Source of the DNA: Rhodonellum psychrophilum GCM71 = DSM 17998
GTDB lineage: Bacteria; Bacteroidota; Bacteroidia; Cytophagales; Cyclobacteriaceae
Length of the DNA: 64,000 nucleotides
Assembly: GCF_000381545.1 (NCBI RefSeq)
Contig: NZ_KB906696.1
Span: 1 to 64,000 of the forward strand
Direction of reading: 5' to 3'
Within the stretch, counting starts at the first letter, position 1; each line of letters begins with the position of its first letter. The position numbers were made by a program, and so were the translations under genes. Below are positions 15,487 to 30,105 of this stretch, in pieces. The notes beneath the pieces were generated by a model. It ran no database searches. It was not told where the DNA came from and saw only the letters and a list, made by a program, of their open reading frames with translations.

Positions 15487-17412
15487 TTGAAAATGTGCCC
15501 AAAATTCTTTTTAAAAAAGCAATTGCTAATGCTCATGCAATTGTGCCTAATTGTTTTTTTTCTTGGAATCAAGGTCAATACTGCAAATGGTTCGATATTG
15601 ATTGCTGGCATTTTGATACAGGAATCAAGCGATACTACTGTAAGTATAGAGAACTTGCAGTACTTCAGTGAGCGGGCTTGGAAAAACCATTATTCAGACT
15701 CTGCGCAGGTCTATTATGAGGAAGTAATCGATATGGCCAAGAAGCTTGGCGATAAAAATATCGAGGCCCAAAATCTAAACCGTCTGGGAATTTTTTATCG
15801 CAATTTGGATCTTCAAGAGGAAGCCTTGAAATATTATGACGAGGCACTTAAAACCAGCAGGAGTATTCAAAACAAAAAAGAGGAAGGTTTTGCATTGAAC
15901 AACATTGCACAGATTTATCACTATCAAAACCTTCATGAGGAATCGATTGATTTTTATACAGAGGCACAGACAATTTTTCAAGAAATTAATTTCATGGAAG
16001 GACTTGGCTATACCTATACGGGTTTGAGCGCGGCATATAGCGAAATCAAAAACTACCTACTTGCCATTGAGCTCATCAACAAGGCAATCCAAATCCGAAT
16101 GGATTTGGATCATGAGAGACAAGTGACCATCTCTAAACTTAACCGAGGGGATATTTATTATCAACTTGGGAATTTGGAAGCAGCGGAAGCCGATATTAGG
16201 ACTTTCTTGGATTATGCCTTGGTTCATGATCAAAGAGGTGCTGTATCCACTTATGGTAAACTTGGAGAAGTCTATTTTAAGGGCAATCAAGATGAAAAAG
16301 CCATTGAAATGGCGCAAAAAGCGATTGAGTTAAATGTGTCCCATCCCAATTCAACAGGCATGGTCACCGTATATGGATTGCTTTACCAAATTTTCCTCAA
16401 AAAAAATCAACCAGAAAAAGCTATGCAATATTTGGAGCTTTTGTCTGAAGCAAAAAATGCCATCGATGAGGAAAAAACAAAAAATTATCTTTCTGCCTTG
16501 ATGATCCAAAAGCAAAAGGATGAAATTGCGGCACTCAATCGGGAGAATTTATTGAAGGATAAAAATGACAATTTCAAATTGTGGATATCCTACATTCTGA
16601 CGATACTGGTCGTGGTCCTTTTTGCAGCATTTTTTGTCTACTATAGATCTTTTCAAAAGGAAAAAGACAATCTAAATAAGTTATTGGAACAAAAAATCAG
16701 GATTCAGAAGCAAGCTGAAGAACTTGACAAATTGAATTTAGTGAAAGACAAGATTTTTTCCATCCTTGCCCATGACCTAAGAGGTCCACTGCATTCCCTT
16801 CAGGGAATGATTGAATTGATGAACCAGAATGACCTGACACAAGATGAATTTAAATCCTTCTTGCCCCTGCTTTCTCAAAATCTAGGAAACAACACCATCC
16901 TGCTGGAAAATCTCCTAACATGGTCCAAAAGTCAGATGAAGGGAATGGAAGCAAATTTCAAAACTTTTAATTTGTTTTTGGTTATCGAAAACAACTTCTC
17001 TTTCTTCCAAAAATCAAACTATTTCAAAGGCCAAAAGCTATTCAACAAGGTCCCTGATCCTCTAATGGTGAAAGCTGACAAAGCCATGTTGGAAGTCGTA
17101 TTGAGGAATTTGATCTCCAATGCCTTAAAATTCACATCCAAGGATGATGAAATCAAGATCAGTTGTCTTCTAAGATCAGATGGAACCTACACGATCAGTG
17201 TTGAAGATTCGGGCGTTGGAATGAAAGAAGAAAGTTTAAACAAGCTCTTTGGGAAAGAATTTATCTCTACATCGGGTACCCATCAGGAATCGGGTACGGG
17301 AATAGGCCTTTTGCTTTCCAAGGAATTGATTGAAAAAAACCGCGGGATAATCTGGGCGGAAAGTAAACTCGGCCTTGGATCAACCTTTAAATTTACGATT
17401 TCCAAATCCTAA
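15487..17412 (+). CDS. TPR-containing sensor histidine kinase
   Basis: 641 residues. An N-terminal hydrophobic stretch (11-27) acts as signal or anchor. TPR repeats span about 55-330 (e.g. NLNRLGIFYRNLDLQEEALK, ALNNIAQIYHYQNLHEESI). A transmembrane helix covers 364-387, then a coiled coil. HisKA has DKIFSILAHDLRGPL with H429, and the HATPase domain (about 520-640) has VEDSGVGM and GTGIGLLL. The periplasmic TPR sensor with cytosolic kinase is a common Bacteroidota design. No response regulator is adjacent, so its partner is elsewhere. Its stop overlaps the convergent trkH stop by 4 bp. Several near start codons (15487, 15493) are possible. Confidence 0.88.
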   Translation: MKMCPKFFLKKQLLMLMQLCLIVFFLGIKVNTANGSILIAGILIQESSDTTVSIENLQYFSERAWKNHYSDSAQVYYEEVIDMAKKLGDKNIEAQNLNRLGIFYRNLDLQEEALKYYDEALKTSRSIQNKKEEGFALNNIAQIYHYQNLHEESIDFYTEAQTIFQEINFMEGLGYTYTGLSAAYSEIKNYLLAIELINKAIQIRMDLDHERQVTISKLNRGDIYYQLGNLEAAEADIRTFLDYALVHDQRGAVSTYGKLGEVYFKGNQDEKAIEMAQKAIELNVSHPNSTGMVTVYGLLYQIFLKKNQPEKAMQYLELLSEAKNAIDEEKTKNYLSALMIQKQKDEIAALNRENLLKDKNDNFKLWISYILTILVVVLFAAFFVYYRSFQKEKDNLNKLLEQKIRIQKQAEELDKLNLVKDKIFSILAHDLRGPLHSLQGMIELMNQNDLTQDEFKSFLPLLSQNLGNNTILLENLLTWSKSQMKGMEANFKTFNLFLVIENNFSFFQKSNYFKGQKLFNKVPDPLMVKADKAMLEVVLRNLISNALKFTSKDDEIKISCLLRSDGTYTISVEDSGVGMKEESLNKLFGKEFISTSGTHQESGTGIGLLLSKELIEKNRGIIWAESKLGLGSTFKFTISKS

Positions 17413-18860
17413 TTTGTCCTCCAGAAATAAGGGGTGAATAGAATCAGAATTGTGTAAAGTTCAAGTCTTCCCAGGAGCATGATGAAGGATAGAAATACTT
17501 TTGCGGTGGGAGAAAAGAAAGAAAAATTATCGACGGGTCCCACTTTTCCGATTCCAGGCCCCACATTTCCCAAACAAGTGGCTACAGCGCCAAAAGATGT
17601 AAGGATATCATATCCCATTATCGTGAGCACGATAGAACCCATCACAAAGATCATGAGATAAATCAAGAGGAAATTCATAATGTGTGTGATGATTTTCCCT
17701 GTTACCCGATCTCCATTTATTTTTAGTGGAACTACCGCTCTTGGATGAACGATCCTTTTGAATTCCAGCCAACTATTTTTAAAAAAGGCCAAATGCCTGA
17801 CAAATTTAATTCCCCCAGCAGTAGAACCCGCAGATCCACCCATAAACAAAAGCATGAAAAAAATCAATGTGATTCCAATATGGTACCTGGTATAATCTGC
17901 AGACACAAATCCGGTAGTGGTTATCAAAGAAACAACTTGGAACAAGGTATCCCTGAATGCCTTTTCGTATTCCAAACCACTGATAAAGTAGATGGGAATA
18001 GACAACCCAATTCCCAAAAGAATGATGGTGGTCGCATAAGCTTTAAATTCATCAGACCGAAATACCCTGTCAAATTTCCCGGTAAGACTGAAATAGATGA
18101 CCGTAAAGTTAGTACCTGCCAAAAACATAAATAAAATTGCTGTATACTGGATAAATGGGCCATCATAATACGCCATACTGGAATTTTTGGTGGAAAAACC
18201 ACCCGTGGCCATGGTGGTTAAGGCATGGTTCACCGCATCATAAAAATCCATCCCTCCAAGAAAATACAAAAGCCCTGCGGCAAAGGTCAATCCAACATAG
18301 ATATACCAGAGACGTTTTGCTGTTTCCCGGATTCTCGGATGCAATTTGTCGGAGGTTGGCCCCGGGGATTCTGCCACAAATAGTTCAATTCCACCAATTC
18401 CCAAAAGGGGAAAAATAGCGACGGTCAAAACGATGATACCCAAACCACCGATCCACTGCGTCATGCTTCTCCAAAATAAAATACCTTTAGGAATTACTTC
18501 AATATCCGTTAGAATGGAGGCTCCCGTAGTCGTCAATCCCGATACCGTTTCAAAGAGGGCATCTGCAACATTCGGAATGGTACCGCTGATCAAATAAGGC
18601 AGCATCCCAAAAATGGACATCAAGAACCAACTGACCGATACAATCATGTATCCTTCTCGCTTTCGGATATTTTGATCTTGTTTGGAAAAGGAGAAAAATA
18701 GAATCGCCCCTATCAGTCCAGAGACAATGGCGGCAGCTATCAGGGAGATTTCATCCCCGCTTTCATAGTATAATGAAAATCCAACACCAGGAAGCATAAG
18801 AAGCCCAAGAAGCATCAACAATGCACCCATAATCTTTCCAATGGCCTTGAAATGAATCAT
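17409..18860 (-). CDS. trkH: TrkH-family potassium uptake channel subunit
   Basis: 483 residues, inner membrane, with the four pore-loop repeats of the TrkH/KtrB fold. The selectivity-filter regions are visible as LTTTGASIL, TTMATGGFSTKNSS, SLITTTGFVSADY and ATCLGNVGPGIG. It moves K+ driven by membrane potential and is gated by the cytosolic TrkA ring. trkA lies immediately upstream on the same strand, 3 bp apart, so the two form an operon with translational coupling likely. The stop TAG overlaps the end of the convergent histidine kinase gene. Confidence 0.93.
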   Translation of the reverse strand: MIHFKAIGKIMGALLMLLGLLMLPGVGFSLYYESGDEISLIAAAIVSGLIGAILFFSFSKQDQNIRKREGYMIVSVSWFLMSIFGMLPYLISGTIPNVADALFETVSGLTTTGASILTDIEVIPKGILFWRSMTQWIGGLGIIVLTVAIFPLLGIGGIELFVAESPGPTSDKLHPRIRETAKRLWYIYVGLTFAAGLLYFLGGMDFYDAVNHALTTMATGGFSTKNSSMAYYDGPFIQYTAILFMFLAGTNFTVIYFSLTGKFDRVFRSDEFKAYATTIILLGIGLSIPIYFISGLEYEKAFRDTLFQVVSLITTTGFVSADYTRYHIGITLIFFMLLFMGGSAGSTAGGIKFVRHLAFFKNSWLEFKRIVHPRAVVPLKINGDRVTGKIITHIMNFLLIYLMIFVMGSIVLTIMGYDILTSFGAVATCLGNVGPGIGKVGPVDNFSFFSPTAKVFLSFIMLLGRLELYTILILFTPYFWRTN

Positions 18861-18863
18861 CTG

Positions 18864-20207
18864 TTAATGGAAAAGTTTTTCTAGTGGGATTTTGGCCTCA
18901 GGCAAGGCCATCACGATCGCCTTGTCATTGATTTGAAGGATAAAATCTCCATCGGGGATAAACACATCATCGTTCCTGATGACTCCTGCGACGATGGCAG
19001 TTTCCGGAAAATGAAGGTCTTTCAAAGCTTTTTTGGTTACACGATTGTTTTTTGTCACCACAAACTGAATGAATTCAGCATCTACACCATATATCCCGGA
19101 GACTGCTTCCACATTTCCTTTTCTCAGGAACCTGGTGATCTGATTCGCTGCAACTAGCTTTTTATTAATCAAAGAATCCACACCGATGCTATGTGAAATA
19201 TGGATGTATTCTCGGGTATCCACATGGGCAATCGTCTTGTAAACGCCGTGGTTTTTGGCACTCAAACTCGTAATAATATTCGTTTCTGATGATTCTGTCA
19301 AGGAAATAAAAGCATCCATTTGCTCCAGGCCTTCCTCAATCAAAAGTTCAACATTTTTATAGTCTCCATTGATAACCAATGTTTTATCCAGTCTTTCAGA
19401 AAGCCATTTACACCTTTCTTTATCCCTATGGATGAGTGTTACCCTGTATTCTGCTTCCAACTTCAGTGAGGTTGCAAAGGCCATATCGTCCCCACCGATG
19501 ATCATGACATTTTTGATATCTACCCTTTTTTGATCCAGGATGGCGATGATGGATTCTACATTTTTTTTATTGGAAATAAAGAAGACATGGTCGTTGTTTC
19601 TAATGATCGTATTTCCTTTTGGGATGATGGTCAATTGGTCCCTAACGATGGCAATGATTCTGATATCTTCAAAAAGTAAATTGCTCGTTTCGGAGATTTT
19701 TTTGTTCACCAAGGAACTGTATTGATCGAGTGTAATCCCTACTACATTCAGTTTTCCCTGTTCGAATTCAAAAACATCTGAAAAGGAGGAATTCTTGATC
19801 ATTCTATAGATTTCCGCACTGCCGAGCATCGTTGGGGAAATGATATTGTCAATCCCGATGTTTTTGAAATATTTATCGTTTTCCGGACTCAAGTAATCAT
19901 GGGTTCTTACCCTTGCCAAAACCCGGTTGGCGCCAAGCTGTTTGGCAAGTGAGGCCGTTACGATATTGGTTTTTTCGGAAGTGGTCACGGCCATGACCAT
20001 GTGGGCATCTTTGACATTTGCACTTTTGAGGACTTCCAAAGAAGTGGAATCACCCAATATTGTCAACACGTCCAAATGCGCAGATACATTGTCCAATACA
20101 TCTTTATCGGTGTCGATAAGGATGATGTCTTTGTTGTCATAGCTAAGGTGTTCGGCAAGATGGTAACCCATATCTCCCGCACCTGCTATTACGATCTTCA
20201 TGCCCAT
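18864..20207 (-). CDS. trkA: Trk system potassium transporter regulatory protein TrkA
   Basis: 447 residues with duplicated RCK (TrkA-N plus TrkA-C) modules. The first Rossmann motif is VIAGAGDMGYHLAEHL near the N-terminus with the acidic ILIDTD strand. The second starts at about 233 (VMIIGGDDMAFATSLKLE). Two TrkA-C domains lie near 150-220 and 370-445. It binds NAD(H)/ATP and gates TrkH. Two starts 6 bp apart (20207, 20201) are possible; MKIVIAG at 20201 is the commoner family start. First gene of the trkA-trkH operon. Confidence 0.92.
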   Translation of the reverse strand: MGMKIVIAGAGDMGYHLAEHLSYDNKDIILIDTDKDVLDNVSAHLDVLTILGDSTSLEVLKSANVKDAHMVMAVTTSEKTNIVTASLAKQLGANRVLARVRTHDYLSPENDKYFKNIGIDNIISPTMLGSAEIYRMIKNSSFSDVFEFEQGKLNVVGITLDQYSSLVNKKISETSNLLFEDIRIIAIVRDQLTIIPKGNTIIRNNDHVFFISNKKNVESIIAILDQKRVDIKNVMIIGGDDMAFATSLKLEAEYRVTLIHRDKERCKWLSERLDKTLVINGDYKNVELLIEEGLEQMDAFISLTESSETNIITSLSAKNHGVYKTIAHVDTREYIHISHSIGVDSLINKKLVAANQITRFLRKGNVEAVSGIYGVDAEFIQFVVTKNNRVTKKALKDLHFPETAIVAGVIRNDDVFIPDGDFILQINDKAIVMALPEAKIPLEKLFH

Positions 20208-23542: not shown

Positions 23543-24640
23543 ATGATCAAAACACTCCTCCTTTCTCTCCTTTTGGGCAGCATTGCCTTATCCGATTTGC
23601 CCACAGAAAAATCTCAAAAACTAGCTAACCTGGAACCCATCAGATTGACCTTGGCCGAGGCAAACCGTTTGGCTTTGCTCCCACTCCATTGTATGCAGGT
23701 GGAATACCCGAATAAACTCAATCAGACTTTGGAAAACGAAAGCTACCTAAAAGGTCCTATGGAATTGCATCCGGCCTTTTACGGTTGTTTTGACTGGCAT
23801 TCAAGCGTCCATGGGCACTGGATGTTGGTGACCCTCTTGCGACAATTCCCTGATTTGGACAATCGTGAAGAAATAAAGGAAAAGTTAAAGACCAACTTAT
23901 CTGCCCTTAATATTGAAAAAGAAGTATTCTACTTCTCAGGGCCACAGAATGCAAGCTTTGAGCGGACCTATGGTTGGGCCTGGATCCTGAAACTTGCCGA
24001 GGAACTGCACCAATGGGAAGATCCTTTGGCGAGGGAACTGGAAGCAAATCTCCAACCGCTTACGGAGTTGATGGTGGAAAAATATTTGGAGTTTCTTTCC
24101 AAACTGATATATCCCATTCGGGTGGGAGAACATTCCAACATTGCATTTGGGCTTTCCTTGGCTTATGATTATGCCGAAACAGTGGAACACCAACCCTTAA
24201 AGGAACTCATCCGGCGGCGGGCCTTGGATTGGTTTGAAAATGACGAGAACTGTCCCTTGACCTGGGAACCGAGCGGTTTTGATTTCCTTTCCCCTTGTTT
24301 TCAGGAATTGGACATCATGCGGAAGGTTTTGGGTAAGGAGGAATTCAAAATTTGGGCAAATGGATTTTTGCCGCAATTGGCCAAAAATGATTTTTCTCTC
24401 GAGCCGGGTAGAGTGAGTGATAGAACCGATGGGAAATTGGTCCATTTGGATGGGCTGAACTTCAGCAGGGCTTGGGTGATTTACGGTTTGATCCATGCTT
24501 ATCCCGAGGATTATGGACATTTGATGGCTGTTGCAAATGCCCATATTCAATACTCTCTTCCCTCTATTGTAGATGACAATTACGAAGGCACCCATTGGTT
24601 GGGGAGTTTTGCGGTTTATGCATTGTTGCAAGCCCCATGA
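23543..24640 (+). CDS. DUF2891 protein, secreted
   Basis: 365 residues with an N-terminal signal peptide (about 1-18). The DUF2891 signature is strong: ELHPAFYGCFDWHSSVHGHW, then YGWAWILKLAEEL, RVGEHSNIAFGLSL, and WEPSGFDFLSPCFQELDIMR. The fold is an (alpha/alpha) barrel of the glycosidase-like kind. Activity is unknown, and conserved Asp, His and Glu suggest a hydrolase. Its stop overlaps the ATG of the Nramp gene (ATGA at 24637-24640), so the two are translationally coupled. Confidence 0.85.
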   Translation: MIKTLLLSLLLGSIALSDLPTEKSQKLANLEPIRLTLAEANRLALLPLHCMQVEYPNKLNQTLENESYLKGPMELHPAFYGCFDWHSSVHGHWMLVTLLRQFPDLDNREEIKEKLKTNLSALNIEKEVFYFSGPQNASFERTYGWAWILKLAEELHQWEDPLARELEANLQPLTELMVEKYLEFLSKLIYPIRVGEHSNIAFGLSLAYDYAETVEHQPLKELIRRRALDWFENDENCPLTWEPSGFDFLSPCFQELDIMRKVLGKEEFKIWANGFLPQLAKNDFSLEPGRVSDRTDGKLVHLDGLNFSRAWVIYGLIHAYPEDYGHLMAVANAHIQYSLPSIVDDNYEGTHWLGSFAVYALLQAP

Positions 24641-25860
24641 GAGGCAATTGGAGGAATTATATAGGTCCGGGTCCACTGGTTGCAGCTGCTTTTATCGGGC
24701 CGGGGACTGTTACCGTTTGCACGCTTGCCGGTGTGAATTTTGGATTTGACCTGCTGTGGGCTTTGGCGCTCTCCATGGTTGCGACCGTAGTATTGCAGGA
24801 AATGGCTGCTCGGATTGGCCTGGTCACCCAGAAAGGCCTGACTGAAGTCATCGGTGAAACGCTGACCAAAGGCATCGTCCGCTATTTTTCACTGGGTTTG
24901 ATCCTACTTGCCATTGTTCTTGGAAACGCCGCTTACGAAGCCGGTAATATCAGTGGTGGAGCGATGGGAATTGAAATCTTCATCAAAGCACCGGTATTGA
25001 CCATTGGTCAAGCAAGTATAAACATGATCAATTTGTCCATTGGATTGATCGCTCTGGTTTTGCTGATGACCGGGAATTACAAATTGATTGAAAAATATTT
25101 GATTGCTTTGGTCATCCTCATGAGCATCACTTTTTTGGTAACTGCCGTGATGGTCAGACCATCCATGTTGGCTATTTTTCAGGGATTCGTGCCTGGAGTT
25201 GACAGCGGTAACATCCTGACGATAGTCGCCTTGATTGGCACCACGGTGGTTCCATACAACCTGTTCCTTCATTCCTCATTGGTTTCAAAAAAGTGGAAAT
25301 CGGGAAAGGATCTAAAATTTGTACGCGTGGACACCATTGTTGCGGTGGTCTTGGGAGGCCTGGTATCTATGGCCATTGTCATCACCGGTGCAAGCGGAAA
25401 TGCAGATGCAATCAACAATGCCGTGGATTTGGCCCTTGGCTTGGAGCCCTTGTTGGGTGCTGCTGCTAAATATTTTATCGGATTTGGATTGTTTGCCGCT
25501 GGGATCACCTCTGCGATAACCGCCCCATTGGCAGGTGCTTTTGTGGTGGCGGGTTGTTTTGGTTGGTCCACGGATATAAAGAATTGGACCATGCGGGTGA
25601 GTATTTTGGCCATTTTGGGACTGGGTTTGGTTTTTTCCTCTTTTGGAATAAAACCCGTCCAATTGATCACCTTCGCCCAGCTAGCCAACGGGATATTGCT
25701 GCCACTCCTCAGTGCCTATATTTTATGGGTGATCAACAAAGCCTCCGTGATGGGGAAATACAGAAATTCTTTGGGCTTCAATGTCCTAGGTTTGGCGATC
25801 TGGGTGATTACTTTGGTTTTGGGAATCCGCAGCATCATGCGGGTATTGGAGGGTATTTGA
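24637..25860 (+). CDS. Nramp/SLC11-family divalent metal transporter, atypical
   Basis: 407 residues from the ATG inside the ATGA overlap with the DUF2891 gene; the longer frame from 24595 would overlap by 46 bp. About 11 helices in the LeuT fold. The TM1 motif reads GPGTVT (21-26) where canonical Nramps have DPGN. TM6 reads VVPYNLFLHSSLVSKKW where they have MPHN, so the usual Asp/Asn/Met metal ligands are not conserved. The overall Nramp sequence pattern (GNAAYEAGNISGG, FNVLGLAIWVITLVLG) is clear. Substrate uncertain: Mg2+-like or other cation. Confidence 0.85.
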   Translation: MRGNWRNYIGPGPLVAAAFIGPGTVTVCTLAGVNFGFDLLWALALSMVATVVLQEMAARIGLVTQKGLTEVIGETLTKGIVRYFSLGLILLAIVLGNAAYEAGNISGGAMGIEIFIKAPVLTIGQASINMINLSIGLIALVLLMTGNYKLIEKYLIALVILMSITFLVTAVMVRPSMLAIFQGFVPGVDSGNILTIVALIGTTVVPYNLFLHSSLVSKKWKSGKDLKFVRVDTIVAVVLGGLVSMAIVITGASGNADAINNAVDLALGLEPLLGAAAKYFIGFGLFAAGITSAITAPLAGAFVVAGCFGWSTDIKNWTMRVSILAILGLGLVFSSFGIKPVQLITFAQLANGILLPLLSAYILWVINKASVMGKYRNSLGFNVLGLAIWVITLVLGIRSIMRVLEGI

Positions 25861-26049: not shown

Positions 26050-26286
26050 ATGATTTCAGGGAAAAAATTGGCGCCGAGAAAAAACCATTGGAAGGTATAT
26101 CTTCTGATCCTATCGGGATTGCTCTACAATCTTCATTTGGCATTTCAAATACATCCCAATCCAGATGTGAAAAAGCCTGGAATGGAAAGCCCTCCGATTT
26201 TCCCTGAGTCATCCTCCTATTTTGGGATCTCTCCCGATTCCCTCCAAAAAAATGAAACACTTACCCAACGCATTCAAAAACTTTAA
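26050..26286 (+). CDS. Small membrane-anchored protein upstream of the LytS kinase (possible)
   Basis: 78 residues. A basic N-terminus (MISGKKLAPRKNHWK) is followed by one hydrophobic helix VYLLILSGLLYNLHLAF and a Pro/Ser-rich tail. It ends 10 bp before the LytS start in the same direction, which suggests a co-transcribed gene. No family was recognised, and the frame could be chance in AT-rich DNA, though composition and position favour a real short gene. Confidence 0.5.
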   Translation: MISGKKLAPRKNHWKVYLLILSGLLYNLHLAFQIHPNPDVKKPGMESPPIFPESSSYFGISPDSLQKNETLTQRIQKL

Positions 26287-26296
26287 GACTTCCAAC

Positions 26297-27712
26297 ATGA
26301 AAGAAAAAGCTTTACCCTTCAAACAAATAGAATGGTGGATACTGACATTGTTATTTTTGGCCATCGTTTTGGTCAATGTCCTCGATGCAGGAATTTTTTA
26401 CAGAGACGCCACTGACAGGGAATTGGAGTCCTACTTTGCGAAAGTATTTATCCCATTGACGCTTTTTCTTTCCTTTTATCTTTTCCATATCCGATTGCTC
26501 CCCAAATTCTTTTTAGAAAGAAAAAAATGGAAATTGATCCTCTATGCAATTTTAATATTGATAGGCTCTTGGGTTATCATCGGGACATTTTCGGTGGTGG
26601 CCGGAATGACAAGGGATTTTATGATCCCATTCTATTTCAATACCATCGCCATATATGTAGGTTACCTGGTGTTTGTCTATATACTGAATCAAGTAATCTA
26701 TCCCCCAAAACTTAAAGATTATCAGGTTTACAATGCCTTCCGATTGGTTGCCCTATATTTGTTTGTTTTGCTCTTTTTATTCCAATCACATTCCATCATT
26801 CATTCGGCCATTTTGGGGGCTTATGGTTTGGTAATGCCTGTGCTGATCCTTTTGGTGTTGTTCAATTTCTTTCTGGTATATGGAAATCGAAAGGCGAAAA
26901 AAAATAGACTGGCATGGACGTATTATTATTCCTTGATTGCTTTTGTTGTCGTCCTATTTATTTTCCTCTCAATATTTAACCAAAAAGGAGAGTTTTTGAT
27001 TGCTGGTCTATTCGTTATTTTCTTGATTATGGTCCTCATTTTTCCATTGTCAAATCTGTTTTTCAACAAGTATGACCACTACTTAAGTCAATTGACAACG
27101 CTTACCTATAAGGTTGACCAGAGTTCAGCCAATCTCAGTTTTCTCCGCTCCCAAATCAATCCCCATTTCCTGTTCAACGCCCTGAATACGCTTTATGGCA
27201 CTGCGCTTCAGGAAAATGCAGAAAGAACGTCTGAAGGCATCCAGAAACTCGGCGACATGATGCGCTTTATGCTCCACGAAAATAATCAGGATAAAATCCC
27301 TTTGGAACGGGAAAAAGAATACTTGGTCAATTATGTAGACCTTCAAATGCTCCGCATCAAGGACCAGGAAAACATTGAAATCCTATTCAACCGGAGTCAA
27401 GAAGCTTGTGCAGGTGAAATTGCACCGATGTTGTTGATTCCATTTGTGGAAAATGCATTCAAGCACGGCATCAGCTTCCAGAGCAAATCCTGGGTGAAAA
27501 TCAGCTTGAGATGTTTGTCGGGATCTGTACATCTGGATGTAAACAACAGCATACACCGATCCAATGCTGAGGACCCCGAAAGAAAAGCTTCTGGCATTGG
27601 ACTCGAAAACGTCAGACAAAGACTTGAACTTCTTTATCCAGGCAAACATGAATTGGTCATTCGGGAAAATGAGGTTGAATATTTTGTGCATTTATCCATT
27701 CAATTGACCTAA
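26297..27712 (+). CDS. LytS-like sensor histidine kinase
   Basis: 471 residues from the ATG at 26297. A longer frame from 26222 includes 25 residues unlike the family. Eight or so hydrophobic helices occupy about 12-255, the His_kinase domain (SQINPHFLFNALNTLYGTAL, H290) follows, and an HATPase domain ends the protein (ASGIGLENVRQRLELLYPG). It should phosphorylate the LytTR regulator encoded 1 bp downstream. The multi-helix N-terminal domain senses membrane-related signals. Confidence 0.9.
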   Translation: MKEKALPFKQIEWWILTLLFLAIVLVNVLDAGIFYRDATDRELESYFAKVFIPLTLFLSFYLFHIRLLPKFFLERKKWKLILYAILILIGSWVIIGTFSVVAGMTRDFMIPFYFNTIAIYVGYLVFVYILNQVIYPPKLKDYQVYNAFRLVALYLFVLLFLFQSHSIIHSAILGAYGLVMPVLILLVLFNFFLVYGNRKAKKNRLAWTYYYSLIAFVVVLFIFLSIFNQKGEFLIAGLFVIFLIMVLIFPLSNLFFNKYDHYLSQLTTLTYKVDQSSANLSFLRSQINPHFLFNALNTLYGTALQENAERTSEGIQKLGDMMRFMLHENNQDKIPLEREKEYLVNYVDLQMLRIKDQENIEILFNRSQEACAGEIAPMLLIPFVENAFKHGISFQSKSWVKISLRCLSGSVHLDVNNSIHRSNAEDPERKASGIGLENVRQRLELLYPGKHELVIRENEVEYFVHLSIQLT

Positions 27713-27713
27713 A

Positions 27714-28388
27714 ATGCTGACAGCAATAGCCATAGACGATGAACCCATGGCTTTGGAAGTGGTGAAATCACATGCTTCTAAAGTGCCATTTTTGGAACTC
27801 AAATCTGTTTTTACCGATGCCATCAAGGCCTTGGATTATATCAGGGAAAATCCCGTAAACCTGATTTTTCTGGATATCAAAATGCCGGATATCTCAGGAA
27901 TTGAATTGGCTACCCTGATCCCAAAGGAAACGATGGTCATCTTCACCACGGCCTATTCCGAACATGCCGTCAAAAGCTTTGAACTGGATGCCATTGACTA
28001 TTTGCTGAAACCATTCAACCTCAGCCGATTCTTGAAATCCTGTCAAAAGGCCCAGGAATGGCACGATCTCAAAAACGGACCATCGCATGGATTTCTATTT
28101 GTCAAAACCGGATATGAACAAATCAAGGTCAATTTTGAGGATCTTTTGTTTTGCGAAGCAACCGGAAACTATGTCACCTTCCACCTACCCAATCAGAAAA
28201 TACTCAGCAGAATGACCCTGGGTGAGGTGGAAAGCCTTCTCCCAACCGGTTTTCTAAAAACCCAAAGGTCTTTTGTCGTGAATACCTTATTGATCCAAAA
28301 AATAGAACGCCACCAAGTGACCATTTCGGGAAAGACTGTCCCGGTCAGCAATACCTATTATGATGCGCTTTTGGAGAAATTAAATTGA
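27714..28388 (+). CDS. LytTR-family response regulator
   Basis: 224 residues. Receiver domain about 1-120: IDDE (7-10), phospho-acceptor D54 in IFLDIKMPDISG, T/K switch residues in FTTAYSEHAVKSF and DYLLKPFN. LytTR DNA-binding domain about 130-224 with LFCEATGNYVTFHLPNQK and LLPTGFLKTQRSFVVN. One base separates it from the kinase stop, making an operon and cognate pair. Target genes unknown; the adjacent secreted hydrolases are candidates. Confidence 0.93.
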   Translation: MLTAIAIDDEPMALEVVKSHASKVPFLELKSVFTDAIKALDYIRENPVNLIFLDIKMPDISGIELATLIPKETMVIFTTAYSEHAVKSFELDAIDYLLKPFNLSRFLKSCQKAQEWHDLKNGPSHGFLFVKTGYEQIKVNFEDLLFCEATGNYVTFHLPNQKILSRMTLGEVESLLPTGFLKTQRSFVVNTLLIQKIERHQVTISGKTVPVSNTYYDALLEKLN

Positions 28389-28485
28389 GAAGGTTTTTTG
28401 CAAAAAAAACCATTCACTCAGTAAAGAATTAAAGTAAAGTATGCTTTTTTTTATGGAAATGGTAATTTTATAAAAATTGACCTCC

Positions 28486-30105
28486 GTGAAAAACAACCTT
28501 TCAAAACTTTTGTGCAATCTCGCCCTCCTCATGCTACTTGGAATATTTTCCTGCAGCGAAAAATCCAAGCTTATCCAAAAACAGGACTCCAACTCCCCGC
28601 AACTGGAAACCAGCGATAAATCTACACAGGCGAGGCTAGAAAATAGCCGTACTTCCGAAATCGATTTGAGGAAATCCGAAGATAAGGAAGGGAATTTGGT
28701 AGGGGTCTATTTTATGCCTTCCTGGAATACCTCTCCAGATCCCAACAAGGATATAGACAGTTTTTGGTCCTGTATTACGGGTAGGGAAGATTGCTCTCAT
28801 TTAAAAAACCCTGCGATATGGGGACCGAAAGGTAGAATTTACAACAATCGCTATCCTTATGAAGGACCTTTTTTGGACAGAAAACCCCATACTTCTTTAA
28901 AAGGATTTTACAAAAGAACCGATCCCGAGGTTGCCAAAAAACAGTTGGAATACATGAAGAATTATGGGATTGATTTTTTTGCGTACAACTGGTTTTTTGG
29001 AAGGCATTATTTTCATCACCGCAATTTTGCGCCGCAAGCCAATATTTATTACCCTAAAGGTTGGGAAATTGATCCTGCGCGAGATGGTCGGGTTGCGGTA
29101 CCTGGCTTGGAGGAATGGAATGATCAACTGACTATTTTGCTCCGGGAAAATGAGAAGCTACCCGCTTCAAAACAAATGAAATGGGCCATCAATTGGTGTG
29201 ATGACAGCGATGAAAGATGGAGATTGTGGTTGGATGTTGGTTCACCCGCAAGTTTGGCTGCCAAAAGGAACTACGCAGGAGAAAAACCAGATAAAGCCCT
29301 TTACCTTCAGGTTCATGATAAAATCACGCAACTTTGGATAGATAAATATTTTGGAAGGACCGATTATCTCAAAGATGAAAATGGACGTCCTATCGTCTAC
29401 ATTTATTTCCCCCAAGACATGGAATCCAGAGCTGCATTCTATGGAATCAGCATGCAGGAACTTTTGGATCGCTCAAAGGCCAGGGCTATAAAAAATGGAT
29501 GGCAAGGAATCAAATTCATCGCCGTAGCATCAGGTCCAATGTTGCCCATCGAAAAACAATATGGGTTGCCAACCAAATGGATCCCAAACAATCCAACACG
29601 ACCTTGGGAAGGCGGAACCTATACAGACAAACTGCTTTTGCAGGATTATGTGCCAAGGCTCAAAGGAATGGGTTTTGAGGGAATGACTGGGTACGTCTAT
29701 CATAATTACTACGAGCAAGACAATAAAAGTTATGCCGATATGAGGGCTACTTATCGAGGACATTGGGACAAATGGAGTAAGTTTTATGCGCGGGATCCCG
29801 CTTTTGACTATCAAGTTCCGGTAGCCATGGGATGGGATATGCGACCCGTGGGTGGAACTTGGCCGCAGCCATCAGGCTTTCCAAGTGAACCAATCAAAGA
29901 CAGGGTCCACAGTACCAAAGCCACTTTTAAGGCCAAAATTCAGGAAGCAAAGCGTTTATCCGATACATACAAAAATACCAATGGAAACACGATCATGGTT
30001 TGCTGTTGGAATGAATATTTGGAGGGAAATTACATCGAACCCACCGTTGGCCTTGGCTTTGATTATTTGGAGGCCATTCGGGAGGTTTTCTCAAAAAAGA
30101 AATAG
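28486..30105 (+). CDS. WbsX/GH99-like secreted lipoprotein
   Basis: 539 residues from GTG at 28486 (TTG at 28477 is also possible). MKNNLSKLLCNLALLMLLGI then FSC is a lipoprotein signal. The mature part has a GH99-like TIM-barrel: GVYFMPSWNTSPDPNKD, YMKNYGIDFFAYNWFFGRHY, FKAKIQEAKRLSDTYKNTNG and CCWNEYLEGNYIEPTVGLG. Such proteins act on glycans, or as glycosyltransferase-like WbsX. The exact reaction is unknown. No SD is seen; a non-ATG start is likely. It lies 97 bp after the LytTR gene. Confidence 0.78.
   Translation: MKNNLSKLLCNLALLMLLGIFSCSEKSKLIQKQDSNSPQLETSDKSTQARLENSRTSEIDLRKSEDKEGNLVGVYFMPSWNTSPDPNKDIDSFWSCITGREDCSHLKNPAIWGPKGRIYNNRYPYEGPFLDRKPHTSLKGFYKRTDPEVAKKQLEYMKNYGIDFFAYNWFFGRHYFHHRNFAPQANIYYPKGWEIDPARDGRVAVPGLEEWNDQLTILLRENEKLPASKQMKWAINWCDDSDERWRLWLDVGSPASLAAKRNYAGEKPDKALYLQVHDKITQLWIDKYFGRTDYLKDENGRPIVYIYFPQDMESRAAFYGISMQELLDRSKARAIKNGWQGIKFIAVASGPMLPIEKQYGLPTKWIPNNPTRPWEGGTYTDKLLLQDYVPRLKGMGFEGMTGYVYHNYYEQDNKSYADMRATYRGHWDKWSKFYARDPAFDYQVPVAMGWDMRPVGGTWPQPSGFPSEPIKDRVHSTKATFKAKIQEAKRLSDTYKNTNGNTIMVCCWNEYLEGNYIEPTVGLGFDYLEAIREVFSKKK

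Follow-up and report, generated by a model that had tools for sequence, protein, structure and literature searches.

The transporter gene at positions 24637 to 25860 of the window, by which we mean the whole 64,000-nucleotide stretch of Rhodonellum psychrophilum DNA analysed here, encodes an Nramp-related protein that probably imports 5-oxoproline and not a divalent metal. 5-Oxoproline (pyroglutamate) is cyclised glutamate or glutamine, a small organic acid, and our proposal arises from the genomic coupling of the protein's relatives to two unrelated 5-oxoprolinases, PxpABC and OPLAH/HyuAB. The original prediction had suggested a different substrate, and the gene neighbourhoods now point to this one.

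The gene pair and its substituted metal site

The transporter gene follows a DUF2891 gene, and the features referred to below are these:

23543 to 24640, + strand: DUF2891 (PF11199) gene, 365 aa, first of the pair (Pfam 2.4e-134)
23543 to 23593, + strand: probable signal peptide of DUF2891, MIKTLLLSLLLGSIALS, with no lipobox Cys (judged by eye)
24637 to 24640, + strand: ATGA overlap of 4 nt between the DUF2891 stop and the transporter ATG, read in the sequence as CCCC-ATGA-GAGG
24637 to 25860, + strand: Nramp-related (PF01566, GPGT type) permease gene, 407 aa, assigned by Pfam, tree and neighbourhoods
24697 to 24708, + strand: TM1 motif G21-P22-G23-T24, in place of DPGN, from the alignment; invariant in the window's subclade
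24934 to 24948, + strand: TM3 motif Y100-E101-A-G-N104, with N104 in place of DraNramp Glu134, from the alignment
25240 to 25260, + strand: TM6 motif T202-T203-V204-V205-P206-Y207-N208, in place of ATVMPHN, from the alignment

A single open reading frame runs from the ATG at 24637 through the stop at 25860, and its 407-residue product matches PF01566 at 7.8e-82 (275.6 bits against a gathering threshold of 29.8; profile positions 5–356 of 357) while passing only the broad 'Nramp_1' among the NCBI models and remaining below the NCBI cut-offs for MntH and TIGR01197. The best sequence match in the PDB is 10ky (9.2e-39), which we take to be the clade B Nramp BfraNramp; then come EleNRMT (7qia) and, also among the closest solved relatives, DraNramp. 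A scan for related loci with the transporter alone as query returned only canonical MntH, and an AlphaFold2 model built from the single sequence was poor (pLDDT 46). Most likely, the protein is an inner-membrane permease with the LeuT fold that belongs to the Nramp-related 'orphan outgroup'.

We aligned 72 sequences with MAFFT—DraNramp, BfraNramp, EleNRMT, and plasmid-borne MntHs among them—and counted the residues in each column. The original prediction, which had read GPGT for DPGN in TM1 and VPYN for MPHN in TM6 and had concluded that the Asp, Asn, and Met ligands were absent, held on all three counts: the motifs fall at G21–T24 and V205–N208, and the alignment with those reference proteins failed to restore any ligand. 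From DraNramp to the window's protein the replacements are D56 to G21, N59 to T24, A227 to T202, M230 to V205, H232 to Y207, and, in TM3, E134 to N104, so that every metal-coordinating side chain is gone. The canonical Slc11/Nramp signature, DxxN in TM1 with A/CxxM in TM6, is thus absent, GPGT and TTVV standing in its place; and of the canonical proton-pathway set, the TM3 Glu is N104, the TM6 His Y207, and the TM9 Arg pair W317/T318, which leaves H212 as the only proton-pathway residue kept. No Mg or Mn riboswitch was found by Rfam between 23200 and 26300, though not all NRMTs carry the Mg2+ riboswitch.

The residues G21, T24, N104, T202, V205, and Y207 were invariant in all 35 sequences sampled from the window's subclade, an invariance indicating that the ligand loss is neither chance nor an isolated mutation, and the same site residues are nearly invariant in the sister subclades and in haloarchaeal relatives. 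Far from being confined to this protein, the ligand loss is, as judged from these alignment columns, the mark of a large clade of Bacteroidota and haloarchaea, a whole known side branch of PF01566.

Position among Nramp-related proteins

When the protein was placed in a phylogeny with SLC11, NRMT, and related proteins, the canonical and clade B Nramps formed one side (100/99), from which the window's transporter stood apart. The GPGT proteins and the YcsG type grouped apart from EleNRMT (97/97), the YcsG types forming a 100/100 clade of their own, on a branch of 6.4, that is either sister to or nested in the GPGT clade; the window's protein fell outside that YcsG clade. With BfraNramp and canonical MntH it shares the fold family—10ky being its best PDB match—but those proteins have DPGN/MPH and the TM3 Glu, all absent here, and lie on the separate side of the tree. 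The Mg2+ transporters EleNRMT and CabNRMT resemble it in belonging to PF01566, in a non-canonical site, and in the Thr at the TM6 A227 position; they nevertheless keep the TM1 Asp (DxxG-TxxA/T; PMC8806188) and the TM3 Glu, whereas the window's protein reads GxxT-TxxV with Asn. The PxpT/YcsG (MntG)/MumT proteins, likewise Nramp-related, have in common with it TM1 GPG, the TM3 Asn, the TM6 Tyr, and a gene beside pxpABC, yet are only 24–27% identical to it, carry GPGF and VGGY motifs, and sit on a very long branch.

A Slc11 'orphan' outgroup within PF01566 has been described by sequence only (Cellier 2022, 2023; PMC9606685, PMC10606218). Its five residues, h3 Y/N and h6 T/V/Y, are all present in the window's protein as Y100, N104, T202, V205, and Y207—a match made by residue list, not by sequences—so that the GPGT clade was already known by sequence; the outgroup was defined without a function, however, whereas the window's clade is here tied to 5-oxoproline. 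Others have viewed this outgroup as bridging carriers of metals and carriers of other substrates (PMC4072509), and a 2026 preprint calls the Nramp-related groups other than the NRMT-like and MntG ('G-motif 3') proteins 'entirely uncharacterized' (PMC12873925).

The window's genome has one other Nramp-family gene (L099, G000:C9:9984-11000, − strand), whose product is very divergent, with GPSK in TM1, SIVG in TM6, and an end branch of 3.2 in the tree; it is flanked by a BNR-repeat gene, glucose-dehydrogenase/cytochrome c genes, and two genes without a Pfam match.

Linkage to 5-oxoprolinases and to DUF2891

In a search of 395 Bacteroidota genomes for close homologs, defined by at least 45% identity, such proteins (45–60% identity) occurred in 43, the window's included. 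A pxpA gene was present in 42 of those 43 genomes, against 31 of the 352 others, and lay within 5 kb of the transporter in 36 of the 43 (Fisher p ~2e-35, relatedness ignored; because the genomes are related, p-values of this kind overstate independence). The commonest order was NRAMP-pxpA-pxpB-pxpC, the identities of all three pxp products being confirmed, and in G282, the sole close-homolog genome without pxpA, an OPLAH gene adjoins the transporter (L185).

A sister subclade (34–41% identity) stands beside HyuA-HyuB, either fused as OPLAH (about 1270–1350 aa) or split, which families, it must be said, cover hydantoinases as well as oxoprolinases. More distant GPGT subclades occurred in 34 genomes, and when these were searched whole for Hydantoinase_B, 28 proved to have HyuB/OPLAH; the six without it (G049, G064, G158, G183, G186, and G320) are exactly those with pxpA. 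In 14 of the loci fetched for these distant subclades, L088 among them, OPLAH lay within ~6 kb of the transporter. Altogether, a 5-oxoprolinase-type enzyme was present in 77 of 77 GPGT genomes and in 2 of 23 controls, the latter being genomes without any Nramp match, scored for HyuB and pxpA. On two Haladaptatus plasmids, moreover, a homolog of 44–46% identity directly precedes HyuA, HyuB, and a racemase-family gene.

One GPGT subclade (L126, L127, L129, and L136; TM6 VVTYN/VVAYN) directly follows the alpha and beta genes of a 2-oxoacid:acceptor oxidoreductase, an arrangement possibly reflecting a different organic acid as substrate; most of its genomes have HyuB elsewhere, and HyuB or pxpA is present.

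In the window's own genome pxpABC is unlinked, on another contig (G000:C22, L157), and searches there found no canonical Nramp, no HyuB, and no DUF969. Within the window's family, the site TrkH-TrkA-RmuC-hydrolase followed by the transporter is common to L106–L108 and partly to L100, in which last locus pxpABC comes after the transporter; the simplest inference is that in the window's lineage pxpABC moved away from the transporter, or that it was lost beside it and retained at another place. The TrkH/TrkA-type potassium-uptake genes (17409–20207 in the window) keep their place beside the transporter across the family (L100, L106–L108), and RmuC and the alpha/beta hydrolase do so in most of these loci. 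Farther along the window, a Glyco_tran_WbsX (PF14307) protein is encoded at 28477–30105, downstream of a histidine kinase/response regulator pair (26222–28388).

YcsG-type proteins, taken as those with at least 47% identity to the query (the next matches being below 50 bits), occurred in 16 of the 395 genomes, 15 of which had pxpA, mostly adjacent. None of the 16 also had a close GPGT homolog. In pxpA genomes, then, the YcsG type (15) and the close GPGT homolog (42) were never found together (hypergeometric p 2e-7, relatedness ignored), as would be expected of substitutes. The YcsG-type PxpT of Corynebacterium glutamicum is needed for growth on 5-oxoproline, pxpT mutants being normal on glucose (PMC13274462), which requirement, together with the missing co-occurrence, lends support to the 5-oxoproline reading. 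Bacillus subtilis YcsG, for its part, was called a Mn importer, since cells overexpressing it contained more Mn and a mutant lacking three Mn importers was unobtainable without it (PMC10448178); and Acinetobacter baumannii MumT, whose loss lowers cell Mn, was reported as another (PMC5050338). An A. baumannii gene of the YcsG/MumT type, 60% identical to a pxp-linked one of Klebsiella, adjoins pxpA in L172. In L172–L174 and L181, MumT/YcsG-type genes are accompanied by pxpA and by genes for a biotin carboxylase and a 'urea amidolyase family' protein that resembles PxpBC. 5-Oxoproline, or a lactam like it, may be what the 'urea' operon of A. baumannii in fact serves.

The overlap by which the transporter starts within the DUF2891 stop was confirmed as previously read. 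Adjacent DUF2891-transporter pairs, always with DUF2891 upstream, numbered nine in seven genera, the window's included, so that the pairing is not confined to the window; the spacing in the eight others (L091–L098) ranges from +1 nt to a 20-nt overlap, and all nine lie at 1 nt or less. Six of those loci (L091–L096) have the order DUF2891-NRAMP-pxpA-pxpB-pxpC; the window, L097, and L098 lack pxpABC, the latter two having a gamma-glutamyltranspeptidase gene (GGT) downstream, which neighbour also favours 5-oxoproline; and L088, with DUF2891-OPLAH-NRAMP, adds a tenth association. Scans for promoters and terminators gave no clear excess over shuffled sequences. The earlier statement that the two proteins are made together stands as regards a conserved tight pair, and co-translation, read from the gene layout, is probable only.

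The DUF2891 protein itself matches PF11199 with 447.9 bits (gathering threshold 25) and is 38–39% identical to the solved Campylobacter CJ0554 (8IEU/8IEV), on which structure a literature search found no paper. CJ0554 was also the only significant structural relative in Foldseek, the weaker toroid and endoglucanase matches being dismissed as noise; the AlphaFold2 model from the single sequence was poor here too (pLDDT 51). Twenty-six columns were invariant across 24 homologs, including D84, W85, H86, E127, E140, H197, E242, H301, and H351, and the abundance of His, Glu, Asp, and Trp among them suggests an enzyme. In Bacteroidota the homologs are extended at the N terminus in the same way, often with a lipobox-like Cys, whereas five copies on plasmids of Proteobacteria start at the domain. 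Of the proposed exported, glycosidase-like partner, then, export is plausible from the signal-like N-terminus and the lipobox-like starts of the homologs, and the glycosidase likeness found no support in the structural search. The compartment seems to change within the family: copies from Bacteroidota and Agarilytica have a signal peptide or lipobox, and the five proteobacterial ones have neither (window 23543–23593; L151–L156). In L090 (G047:C165:1582-2542) the DUF2891 frame is broken by in-frame stops, two TGA and two TAA.

DUF2891 was present in 36 of the 395 genomes; 26 of the 36 had it unpaired with the transporter and 21 were without pxpA. Most Bacteroidota copies stand alone with no 5-oxoproline gene nearby, which fact weakened our early idea that DUF2891 was tied to 5-oxoproline everywhere and implies that its substrate may be broader. 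On plasmids of Klebsiella, Niveispirillum, and Sphingomonas, DUF2891 follows DUF969-DUF979, and the Sphingomonas set comes directly after HyuA/HyuB (OPLAH-type). Niehaus and colleagues reportedly linked these families to 5-oxoproline in 2017, as later papers have it. Campylobacter jejuni without the whole cj0552-4 operon (DUF969/DUF979/DUF2891) makes no use of 5-oxoproline (PMC12795558), a result that, with the plasmid arrangements, again backs the 5-oxoproline reading. The DUF969-DUF979(-DUF2891) candidates thus resemble the window's pair in the DUF2891 partner, the presumed substrate, and one locus beside OPLAH, but their permease belongs to an unrelated ion-transporter superfamily (PMC11467057).

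Substrate of the transporter

If the transporter imports 5-oxoproline, the substrate would enter through the TM1/TM6 break, and inside the cell the ATP-dependent PxpABC would open it to glutamate. In APC amino-acid carriers the TM1 GxG binds the substrate carboxylate. By analogy, GPGT may hold the carboxylate through main-chain amides, and from what is known of the APC superfamily the invariant T202/T203/Y207 of TM6 and N104 of TM3 might touch the lactam. DUF2891, for its part, would be exported and act in the periplasm as an enzyme partnering the transporter, either producing the substrate or conditioning it there.

Several observations weigh against 5-oxoproline: the window's pair is not beside pxpABC, the neighbours of one GPGT subclade are 2-oxoacid oxidoreductase genes, the HyuA/HyuB families take in hydantoinases, many DUF2891 genomes have that gene unpaired or have no pxpA, and the distant, ligand-less YcsG (PMC10448178) and MumT (PMC5050338) were reported to import Mn. 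An importer of Mn2+ or Mg2+ whose site had been rebuilt and which supplied metal to the 5-oxoprolinase or the host cell would agree with those two reports, both groups having TM1 G-P-G and neither Asp nor Met, with the movement of Mg/Mn by EleNRMT through an altered site (PMC8806188), and with a genome devoid of canonical Nramp. Yet NRMT and clade B retain the TM1 Asp and TM3 Glu, of which the window's protein has neither; a metal importer predicts neither the coupling to two unrelated 5-oxoprolinases and to archaeal HyuAB nor the replacement of YcsG; and C. glutamicum pxpT mutants, fine on glucose, fail on 5-oxoproline (PMC13274462). Since the ligands are gone and the locus is without a metal riboswitch as well, we regard metal import as rather unlikely.

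Import of another small organic acid akin to 5-oxoproline—glutamate, gamma-glutamyl or pyroglutamyl peptides, hydantoin, or a 2-oxoacid, varying by subclade—is in our estimate unlikely. The 2-oxoacid:acceptor oxidoreductase genes beside one subclade, the Asp/Glu/hydantoin-racemase-family gene adjoining the haloarchaeal copies, and the GGT next to two DUF2891-NRAMP pairs speak in its favour; but the window's subclade is tied almost only to PxpABC, the opening of 5-oxoproline is the one activity common to PxpABC and OPLAH, and the genomes of the 2-oxoacid-linked subclade also have HyuB or pxpA. That the DUF2891-Nramp adjacency is a neutral relic of synteny without joint function, a reading compatible with any substrate of the transporter, we consider quite improbable: in the window's family DUF2891 occurs at the site only here, L100 and L106–L108 being without it, and the majority of DUF2891 genes are solitary, but against this stand nine tight pairs in seven genera, L088 with its intervening OPLAH, and the fact that in Proteobacteria DUF2891 is paired independently with another transporter, DUF969-DUF979.

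Beyond 5-oxoproline import, we advance only tentatively, as conceivable though on balance doubtful, a wider proposal: that the Nramp superfamily has its organic-substrate root in the GPGT clade, composed of LeuT-fold carriers of 5-oxoproline or small carboxylates with an APC-like GxG site, from which metal carriers would have arisen through the change of G to Asp; and that 5-oxoproline metabolism includes, in DUF2891, an enzyme so far unrecognised, which works with unrelated permeases and unrelated oxoprolinases.

For the family, the meaning lies in what is added to a clade already known by sequence, namely the tie to 5-oxoproline, which tie was found independently with two unrelated 5-oxoprolinases in two domains of life. 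The Nramp-related proteins beyond the canonical family have been 'orphan' or 'entirely uncharacterized', YcsG/PxpT being the one studied relative outside NRMT, with a substrate disputed between Mn2+ and 5-oxoproline, in which dispute a second, distinct clade favours an organic substrate. Many entries auto-annotated as 'Nramp family divalent metal transporter', the Haladaptatus plasmid copies among them, are probably misnamed, and DUF2891, a solved yet unexplained structure, gains a pathway context.
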